Positions 42,046 to 44,366 of a stretch of DNA of 64,000 nt are shown piece by piece (the first letter of the stretch is position 1; every line of letters begins with the position of its first letter). A model generated the notes under the pieces. That model saw only the letters and a program-made list of their open reading frames with translations, did not search any database and was not told where the DNA came from. Source of the stretch: Turicibacter bilis (GTDB lineage: Bacteria > Bacillota_I > Bacilli_A > MOL361 > Turicibacteraceae). A program made the position numbers and the translations under genes. Location of the stretch: positions 558,001 through 622,000 of the forward strand of contig NZ_CP071249.1 of NCBI RefSeq assembly GCF_024499055.1. The letters run 5' to 3'.

Positions 42046-43734
42046 TTATAAATTAAACTCTTCAACAATAGGAATGATAATAGGTTTGCGTTTCGTTTTA
42101 TTAAATAATAATTTTCCAACTTTATCACGTAACTCTTGACGTAATCCTTGCCAGTTAACATACTGTTCTGTCACGAATTGACCAATAATGTTACGAACTA
42201 ATTCATCTAATAATTTATATAATTCTTCATTTCCTTTTTCGTAAACAAATCCTTTACTTACGATTTGTGGTCCCGCTACAATTTCTTTTGTATTTTTATT
42301 TAAGTTAGCAATCACAACGATAATTCCGTCATTTGCCATGAGTTGACGATCACGTAAGACAACACTTCCAATGTCACCAACACCTAATCCGTCCACTAAT
42401 ACTTGATCAATTTGAATATGTTCTGTATGGTTCACTAGTTCCCCTTGTTGGAACTCAACGACATCACCATTATCTAATAAAATAATGTTCTCTGAATGAT
42501 ATCCCATTTGCTCTGCTACTTTCGCATGAGCCACTAAATTGCGATATTCCCCAATAACCGGCATAACGTACTGTGGTTTTAATAAATTCATCATTAACTT
42601 CAAATCTTCACTACTTGCATGTGACGATGGTAATAGATTTTTATTAATCACACAAACTTGTGCTCCTGTGCGATATAACATATCAATCGTACGTGCCGCT
42701 TTAATCTCATTCCCTGGAATTGGCGGTGTCGCTATAATGACTGTATCTGTTTTTTCGATATGAATTAAACGGTCTTGATGTTTAGCCATACGAATTAATG
42801 AATTAAATGGCTCATAACGATTACCTGTCGCTAATACGACTAAATTTGATAAGTTATTATCATTTTTCTCATCAATATATAATAAGTTCATTAACATTGA
42901 TTTTGGAATACGTAAGTATCCTAATTTTACTGCAATATCGACAATACGTTGCATTTTACGTCCAATAATGGCAATCTTACGTTTATATTGAACAGCTAAG
43001 TCAATGACTAACTGAATTCGATGTAAATCTGAAGAGTATAATGAACAAATAATACGCCCACTCGCACGAGAGAAAACTTCATCTAACTCATACTGAAGTG
43101 AGGTTCCCGTACTTGTATGTCCAGCTTTTTCAGCATTGATACTTTCTGACAATAAGCAAAGAACACCTTCTTTTGAAATTTCTGAAATACGTGCATAATT
43201 TGTTTGATAGCGACCCTTTGCACTTTGATCAAACGTAAAATCAGAAGTATAGACAATCACTCCGTCAGTTGTATGAATACAAATCGCTACTGAATCTGGA
43301 ATACTATGAGTGGTTTTAAAGAAGGTTACTTTAATCTCTCCAAAGAATAATTCATTATTTTCACGGATTTTATAAAGTTTATATTGTTTAAAATCTAGTC
43401 CATTCTCCGTTAATGAATCTTCTACTAAAGACATCGTTAAGCGTGTTCCATAGACTGGAACATTAATAATACTCAATAATTGAGGAATAGCGCCAATATG
43501 ATCTTCATGACCATGTGATAAAAAGACCCCTTGAATGCGAGAAGCGTTCTCTTTTAAATAAGTGAAATCTGGGATGACGGCATCAACCCCTAATAAATCT
43601 TCCGTTGGATATTTTAACCCTGCATCTAAAATAAAGATTTTATCATTAACTTCTACTACATATAAGTTTTTCCCATTTTCATCGAGTCCACCTAAAGCAA
43701 ATACTTTAATTTTTTGTTCTACTACTGATGCCAC
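42046..43734 (-). CDS. rnj: Ribonuclease J
   Basis: RNase J is the 5'-3' exonuclease and endonuclease of mRNA decay. The protein has the metallo-beta-lactamase motifs VFALGGLDENGKNLYVVEV, FLSHGHEDHIGAIPQLL (about 76-92) and TTHSIPDSVAIC. The beta-CASP motifs include ATGNRYEPFNSL and LPSSHASSEDLKLMMNLL. A C-terminal domain follows. The start is unusual. The only strong ribosome binding site (AAAGGAGGTGA, 43801-43811) is separated from this frame by a 60-nt hairpin. I prefer the GTG at 43734 (563 residues, MASVVEQKIKVFALGG). With the hairpin folded out it lies 9 nt after GGAGG. The frame stays open to a TTG at 43764, which has no good site. Confidence 0.92.
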   Translation of the reverse strand: MASVVEQKIKVFALGGLDENGKNLYVVEVNDKIFILDAGLKYPTEDLLGVDAVIPDFTYLKENASRIQGVFLSHGHEDHIGAIPQLLSIINVPVYGTRLTMSLVEDSLTENGLDFKQYKLYKIRENNELFFGEIKVTFFKTTHSIPDSVAICIHTTDGVIVYTSDFTFDQSAKGRYQTNYARISEISKEGVLCLLSESINAEKAGHTSTGTSLQYELDEVFSRASGRIICSLYSSDLHRIQLVIDLAVQYKRKIAIIGRKMQRIVDIAVKLGYLRIPKSMLMNLLYIDEKNDNNLSNLVVLATGNRYEPFNSLIRMAKHQDRLIHIEKTDTVIIATPPIPGNEIKAARTIDMLYRTGAQVCVINKNLLPSSHASSEDLKLMMNLLKPQYVMPVIGEYRNLVAHAKVAEQMGYHSENIILLDNGDVVEFQQGELVNHTEHIQIDQVLVDGLGVGDIGSVVLRDRQLMANDGIIVVIANLNKNTKEIVAGPQIVSKGFVYEKGNEELYKLLDELVRNIIGQFVTEQYVNWQGLRQELRDKVGKLLFNKTKRKPIIIPIVEEFNL

Positions 43735-43740
43735 ATTCTT

Positions 43741-43800
43741 ATCGTTGTCAATGATATGAAACAAAATTTCGTTTCACTGGTTACGTCAGTTGACAACGAT
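43741..43800 (-). promoter_or_regulatory. 60-nt hairpin in the translation-initiation region of RNase J
   Basis: On the minus strand the first 11 nt (ATCGTTGTCAA, 43790-43800) are perfectly complementary to the last 11 (TTGACAACGAT, 43741-43751). An inner TGAAAC/GTTTCA stem has an 8-nt loop. A TTG inside the outer stem (43796) is 7 bp after GGAGG. It opens a 24-codon frame (43722-43796) that is out of frame with RNase J. The hairpin either brings the ribosome binding site to the GTG at 43734 or hides a leader start. Confidence 0.7.
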
Positions 43801-43811
43801 TCACCTCCTTT

Positions 43812-44336
43812 AATTTAATTTTTTAACTTAAAAGTTTCTCACTGTAACCTAATTAGTCACAATCTGACTCACTATGTCATTTTCATATCAATGATATAAA
43901 AGGTAAGATACCCCTTACTTTTTATCATGAGTTTATAGGTTTCCTTTTTTTGAACGGGTCTTCTCTTCATTAAACTTTGATTTCTCATTCCAAATTGATC
44001 GTTTTATTTATTAAATGATACGGATACAAATTTGATTTTAAAAATAAATGAGCATGAGTTAGTGTCAATAAACATAAAATTTATGTTGTCCTATTTATCA
44101 TTCGACGTCACGCATTATTACATACGTCCTTAATGTTCACTTTCTAAAAAACAATGACGACTAATCTATCAAAACGTTCCTCGTTTTGCAAAACTAAAGC
44201 TTAAACTAATCAGGAAAAGATACCATTCAATATGTGTTAATTATCAACTTAAGGATTGTTCTCTTTAACTAACTAAAAAAGATAGAGAACCTAACCTTCA
44301 TTCGTATAAAAAGGAAAATGTTTATCTTCTACAATC
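43812..44336 (-). promoter_or_regulatory. Long 5' leader of RNase J, no gene seen
   Basis: The region of about 520 nt from the probable promoter to the ribosome binding site has no coding frame with a ribosome binding site. It includes hairpins GTTCTCT/AGAGAAC and AAAACG-AGGAA-CGTTTT on the minus strand. A long leader would suit autoregulation by the nuclease, as known for other major RNases. Confidence 0.4.
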
Positions 44337-44366
44337 ATTATAGTACATCACGTCAGTAACTGACAA
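44337..44366 (-). promoter_or_regulatory. Probable promoter of the RNase J transcript
   Basis: TTGTCA (44361-44366) and a perfect TATAAT (44337-44342) are 18 bp apart. The spacer and -35 contain a small palindrome GTCAG-TTA-CTGAC that may be an operator. Confidence 0.55.

Follow-up and report, generated by a model that had tools for sequence, protein, structure and literature searches.

How does a ribosome find the start codon of an mRNA whose strong Shine-Dalgarno (SD) sequence lies 69 nt upstream of it? SD elements act by pairing with the anti-SD of 16S rRNA, and textbook start-site prediction expects them 5-10 nt from the start codon. In the window studied here, a 64,000-nt stretch of the Turicibacter bilis genome, this question is raised by an RNase J gene (rnj) that has a hairpin set between its SD and a GTG. 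By sequence, the encoded protein is of the RNase J2 type (rnjB) and closer to J2 than to J1: its best PDB match is RNase J2 (6k6w, 507 bits), with RNase J1 second at 480 bits, its score with the NCBIfam J1 model is 582 bits, below the cutoff of 820, and it scores 582 bits with TIGR00649. With dapA on its upstream side and a gene for an FtsK-type translocase on the other, the gene occupies the position that rnjB has in Bacillus subtilis. A canonical J1 gene is found elsewhere in the genome (G000:C1:2751009, 917 bits). There is also a third RNase J gene (L066, G000:C1:2030212-2031861), which is J1-like at 748 bits, under the J1 cutoff of 820, and is kept in at least G000, G001 and G004. A hairpin between SD and start is absent at the genome's two other RNase J genes.

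The elements of the rnj site, in window coordinates, are the following.

42046..43734, minus strand: rnj coding sequence, RNase J2-type, GTG start, 562 aa (sequence reading and protein matches)
43732..43734, minus strand: GTG start codon (the equivalent GTG of G006, a relative from another genus, has an in-frame stop one codon upstream)
43801..43811, minus strand: Shine-Dalgarno sequence AAAGGAGGTGA (direct reading; AAAGGAGGTG is identical in 5/5 Turicibacter)
43741..43800, minus strand: 60-nt hairpin in the SD-start interval, predicted to be looped out (folding and comparison)
43790..43800, minus strand: 5' arm of the outer stem, ATCGTTGTCAA (pairing comparison)
43741..43751, minus strand: 3' arm of the outer stem, TTGACAACGAT (pairing comparison)
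43786..43788, minus strand: TGA, 5' side of a 3-bp extension of the outer stem (fold and alignment)
43752..43754, minus strand: TCA, 3' side of the same extension (fold and alignment)
43779..43784, minus strand: GTAACC in the one-sided bulge of the hairpin (invariant in 5/5 Turicibacter)
43769..43777, minus strand: 5' arm of the inner stem (all comparable cells paired)
43756..43764, minus strand: 3' arm of the inner stem (alignment)
43735..43740, minus strand: linker AAGAAT from the hairpin to the GTG (direct reading)
43844..43849, minus strand: leader GGTTAC, complement of the bulge GTAACC (hexamer comparison)
44337..44366, minus strand: promoter-like TTGTCA-18-TATAAT (TTGTC and TGTACTATAAT conserved in 5/5 Turicibacter)
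43722..43796, minus strand: 24-codon TTG frame (not conserved, probably not functional)

The initial annotation had placed a 60-nt hairpin exactly between the SD and the likely RNase J start, with perfectly complementary 11-nt ends and a distance from GGAGG to GTG of 9 nt once the hairpin is excised, and direct reading bears out each of these points. It had also described an inner stem of 6 bp; the stem is present, but its length is 9 bp, and it lies beyond an extra 3 bp and a bulge. The hairpin begins 3 nt past GGAGG and stops 6 nt short of the GTG, and the SD-like match closest to the GTG is 3 nt long. The 24-codon TTG frame (43796-43722) and an in-frame TTG at 43764 are both there as described. 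Separately, an out-of-frame ATG (43736-43734) overlaps the GTG (AATGTG) and opens a 4-codon frame (43736-43722, minus strand) reading MWHQ or similar in all five Turicibacter; competition between the two starts is possible.

In the predicted fold, the 11-bp outer stem continues past a 1-nt bulge with 3 bp more; 7-8 nt then bulge out on the 5' side, before a 9-bp inner stem capped by a 4-nt loop. From SD to start the folding energy is -21.4 kcal/mol, and 0 of 500 dinucleotide shuffles are as stable (z -4.6). Across the genus z ranges from -3.5 to -7.1, and in G006 it is -2.9. For the window sequence, the probability of the closing stem is 0.97-0.98 at all context lengths tried, and it is at least 0.94 in the other Turicibacter in contexts of up to 300 nt, except for G002. 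In this MAG-derived genome (L006) the stem probability is 0.00-0.13 given at least 160 nt of upstream context, the TTTCATATC arm being taken up in long folds by an upstream GATATGAAA segment. The leader segment GATATGAAA is found in G000, G002 and G003 (window ~43880-43900, minus strand) and is complementary to the 3' inner arm TTTCATATC of the hairpin; their predicted pairing could possibly form an alternative fold, one that is not conserved in G001 and G004. Rfam contained nothing matching the rnj site up to E 1, and no match at the gathering score for the L002, L010, YabE-like and ArsR loci.

The genus comparison covered five Turicibacter genomes (G000-G004) that are related to one another, and the order of SD, hairpin and GTG is present in all five species. 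An upstream alignment of relatives, which the initial annotation had proposed as a check for compensatory changes, revealed pairing-preserving changes in these species. In the MAFFT alignment, 97.3% of cells are in standard pairs and 4 pairs have changed on both sides; one of 500 column shuffles reached either pairing value, and sliding the 3' partners by 1-3 columns left 25-60% paired. After re-gapping, pairing survives in 27 of the changed cells and is lost in 3. The inner stem of G004 (L005) is rebuilt as CUGUUAUC/GAUAGCAG. Of the 14 outer-stem pairs, 7 never vary among the five. By type, the cells are 90 Watson-Crick, 19 G-U, 1 A-C and 2 other, and the imbalance between G-U and A-C cells indicates that selection acts on the mRNA strand rather than on double-stranded palindromy. 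The frame relation is identical in independent genomes, which excludes an assembly indel as the explanation. Judged by these comparisons, the hairpin is real, selection acts on it as coding-strand RNA, and both its position and the spacing left after its excision are conserved.

Outside the genus, the comparison included G006, a termite-gut relative that belongs to another genus of the same family and whose protein is 82% identical. In its site AAAGGAGGTGA leads into a hairpin of unrelated sequence (ATCGCCA...TGGCGGT) ahead of the GTG, and the in-frame stop just before this GTG forces the start there. The rnj site is also the top match of the genus hairpin model in the G006 genome (E 0.006). 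In a different family, f8, a short hairpin (ATCCGT/ACGGAT or GTCC/GGAC) follows GGAAGGTGA-like SDs in 6/8 genomes. Neither G006 nor L010, L011 and L013 has a start codon in the stretch 3-15 nt downstream of the SD core. Relatives with a normal site and no hairpin, which the initial annotation had named as contrary evidence, do exist: ordinary rnj sites, with 4-11 nt after an SD match, occur in genus g2 (same family), in two of the eight f8 genomes and in the other families examined. The hairpin is present in Turicibacter, G006 and the remaining f8 genomes. Across the 12 genes compared, the linear gap spans 24-69 nt and the hairpin 13-60 nt, and the excised gap is 8-12 nt. On this comparative evidence, the rnj hairpin is specific to certain lineages, its length and letters being free and the spacing left after excision being constrained.

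These observations lead us to consider a split ribosome-binding site, with the hairpin looped out, the probable means of initiation at rnj, and we hold this with good confidence. In the linear mRNA the strong SD and the GTG would be too far apart; the 60-nt intervening segment would fold into a stable hairpin, the 30S subunit would bind SD and GTG together with the hairpin looped out, and the effective spacing would become 9 nt, so that the SD would select the GTG, as in T4 genes 38 and 25. Hairpin-assisted initiation, which the initial annotation had raised among its suggestions, appears well supported by the pairing changes within the genus, the different hairpin of G006 and the near-constant excised spacing. 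We infer that initiation depends on the hairpin fold, and our guess is that opening or cutting the hairpin would lower expression.

The region upstream of the SD may add a further layer. A promoter-like element, TTGTC-N-TGTACTATAAT, is conserved in 5/5 Turicibacter at 500-602 nt upstream of the start, and this distance suggests that the rnj leader is probably long, roughly 500-600 nt. The leader evolves fast, has 24-28% GC and lacks a conserved reading frame. Within the 120 nt before the SD, GTTACA is the only hexamer common to the five leaders (0.046 shared hexamers expected from shuffling), and it is complementary to GTAAC of the invariant GTAACC bulge. Pairing of GGTTAC with GTAACC can be drawn in four species, and G004 may shift to GTTACA-TGTAAC. 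We therefore offer the suggestion that the leader GGTTAC and the bulge GTAACC make a tertiary contact, a putative pseudoknot, and it would be a guess that this contact stabilises or switches the hairpin. We regard it as less likely that GGTTAC is a -10 promoter element: a consistent -35 was not evident, and the promoter ~490 nt upstream is conserved far better. The idea that the GTAACC bulge mimics the 3' end of 16S rRNA was dropped, the pattern used having matched nothing in the genome.

Similar arrangements precede other genes. In the window's own genome, the genus hairpin model also matched at an ArsR-family regulator, among whose orthologs those of G000, G002 and G003 have GGAGG, hairpin and start, those of G001 and G006 have variant forms, and that of G004 (L130) has a plain, hairpin-less AAGGAGG-TAAGTTA-GTG. 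A YabE-like DUF348-G5 gene shows the split layout in nine genes from three genera, with wholly different stems (CUGUUGCUAAAA/UUUUAGGCAACAG; CUGUUAUAAUUG/CAAUUAUAACAG; CCUGCC/GGCAGG); no YabE-like gene was found in family f8. In genera g1 and g3 (L138 ~533-544; L139, L140, L143, L136, L141), the split SD of the YabE-like gene is directed at a minigene of two codons, ATGAGATGA or ATGTTATGA, and the gene's own ATG overlaps the minigene's stop; in genus g2 the gene itself starts at the first ATG.

Scanning 724 kb, or 26% of the genome, brought up two further genes with SD, hairpin and start, one for a GNAT protein and one GHL10 glycosyl-hydrolase-like, and orthologs of both in G001, G002 and G003 have hairpins of unrelated sequence at the same place. 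The hairpin of the GHL10 gene (L113:5657-5709; L155, L156, L157) differs entirely in sequence from species to species. GNAT in G004 has a plain site with normal SD spacing, and in G002 and G003 it has weak purine-rich stretches near the start besides the hairpin. At ArsR and GNAT (L130 and L150), G004 has thus lost the hairpin or never had it, which makes these loci natural excision controls. Four scan matches reach -10 kcal/mol or below (rnj, GHL10, GNAT and ArsR), the rnj hairpin being the most stable one between GGAGG and a start codon in the sample, and the layout is kept in relatives of all four, a check that covered these four matches. The excess of the GGAGG-hairpin-start motif over permuted motifs was not significant in the 724 kb (5/677 versus 24/5936 sites), and we therefore claim recurrence for the named genes on the basis of conservation and not as a genome-wide excess. 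A P-type ATPase candidate (L074:16911) was set aside, as close relatives of it are lacking in the other Turicibacter and its relative in G006 is without the layout. Single SD-hairpin-ATG candidates occur in other families at L194:3343 (G056) and L211:11718 (G018). In G003, L102:1307-1572 holds two near-identical AAGGAGGTG(T/C)ACCGTTTTGGAG... units spaced by ~194 nt; a small frame opens in each, and they match the rnj hairpin model weakly. As similar hairpins precede unrelated genes, this architecture is no peculiarity of RNase J.

This last point bears on a role suggested by the product itself. As the gene encodes an RNase, the hairpin could be a control site for RNase J (or RNase Y or RNase III), where cutting or exonuclease stalling in the long leader and the hairpin would split the SD from the start and produce negative feedback. 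The ~500-600-nt leader of 24-28% GC and the conserved bulge motif would fit such a site, and a long low-GC leader recalls RNase leaders in general; there is also a precedent in RNase Y, which according to PMC10303841 autoregulates by cleavage of its own mRNA. However, the same SD-hairpin-start layout is found at unrelated genes, the hairpin is missing from the two other RNase J genes, a literature search found no paper on the rnjB leader, and the stem sequence differs between genera, which leaves no shared recognition sequence. We consider an RNase control site unlikely; it could be compatible with the split-site explanation. It is distinctly unlikely, in our judgement, that the hairpins are neutral or mobile insertions, tolerated since they fold away, with no regulation and a fold that only undoes the damage. 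Presence and absence do vary at the same gene among related species, as at ArsR and GNAT in G004, and the stems are unrelated between genes and genera. Set against this are the deep conservation at rnj, which takes in the genus and G006, and that of the YabE-like gene across three genera, the conserved bulge and leader motif, and the lack of other strong copies when eight genomes were searched with the rnj model.

Two further readings turn on the TTG codons. The TTG at 43796 lies 7 nt from GGAGG in 5/5 Turicibacter and opens 24 codons in 4/5, so that a leader peptide could control RNase J translation via ribosome occupancy of the stem. This switch, which the initial annotation had also put forward, is not supported, since in G004 a stop cuts the frame to 4 codons and the SD of G006 has no start codon within range; moreover, the variable inner stem alters the peptide freely while pairing is kept. 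We reject it for want of conservation and regard it as very improbable. Barely credible is the proposal that a protein binds the inverted repeat as a DNA operator, with RNase J starting at the in-frame TTG 43764: the 11-bp arms are perfect and this TTG occurs in 4/5 Turicibacter, but the 19 G-U cells against 1 A-C cell reflect pairing kept on the mRNA strand, the in-frame TTG is missing in G004 and has no nearby SD, and in G006 the stop sits right before the GTG. The split ribosome-binding site with its hairpin looped out therefore remains the reading that we prefer. An extended version of it, in which Turicibacteraceae reuse hairpin-split sites on the chromosome and the one at rnj is regulated by the GGTTAC-GTAACC pseudoknot, with opening or cutting of the hairpin uncoupling SD and start and so providing RNase feedback, we regard as quite doubtful.

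The arrangement has so far been demonstrated mainly in phage T4, where intervening RNA structure cuts the SD-start distance from 22 nt to 5 nt in gene 38 and from 27 nt to 11 nt in gene 25, the latter structure being kept in close T-even phages and missing in distant ones (PMC3014915). As in these phage genes, the rnj SD is too distant and the intervening structure would restore a functional spacing. Unlike them, the Turicibacter site is chromosomal, reaches a linear distance of up to 69 nt with a 60-nt hairpin, has a stem that is fully replaced between genera, and carries a conserved bulge with a complementary leader motif; its function is here predicted from sequence comparison. In Escherichia coli rpsA, a folded leader aids initiation of a chromosomal gene that lacks a strong SD, whereas Turicibacter rnj has a near-perfect SD that is merely far off. 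The rpsA translation initiation region is the subject of a title cited in PMC4611024. For B. subtilis RNase Y, PMC10303841 places cleavage within ~100 nt of the start of its own reading frame and in one further region. RNase Y is, like RNase J, a Gram-positive RNA-decay enzyme, and its post-transcriptional control of its own mRNA is a precedent for rnj; any action of RNase J on the rnj hairpin is, by contrast, conjectural. Our literature searches for chromosomal split ribosome-binding sites and rnjB leaders returned nothing beyond T4.

Seen in this context, the rnj site is likely a split ribosome-binding site of a variant kind, located on a bacterial chromosome and conserved in evolution. Applied here, the 5-10-nt rule would choose the wrong start or label the gene leaderless. 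Orthologs with and without hairpins, together with hairpins of 13-60 nt, offer a ready test of how much structure can be looped out of the SD-start interval on the 30S subunit, and the same natural set could show whether cells exploit split sites for control.
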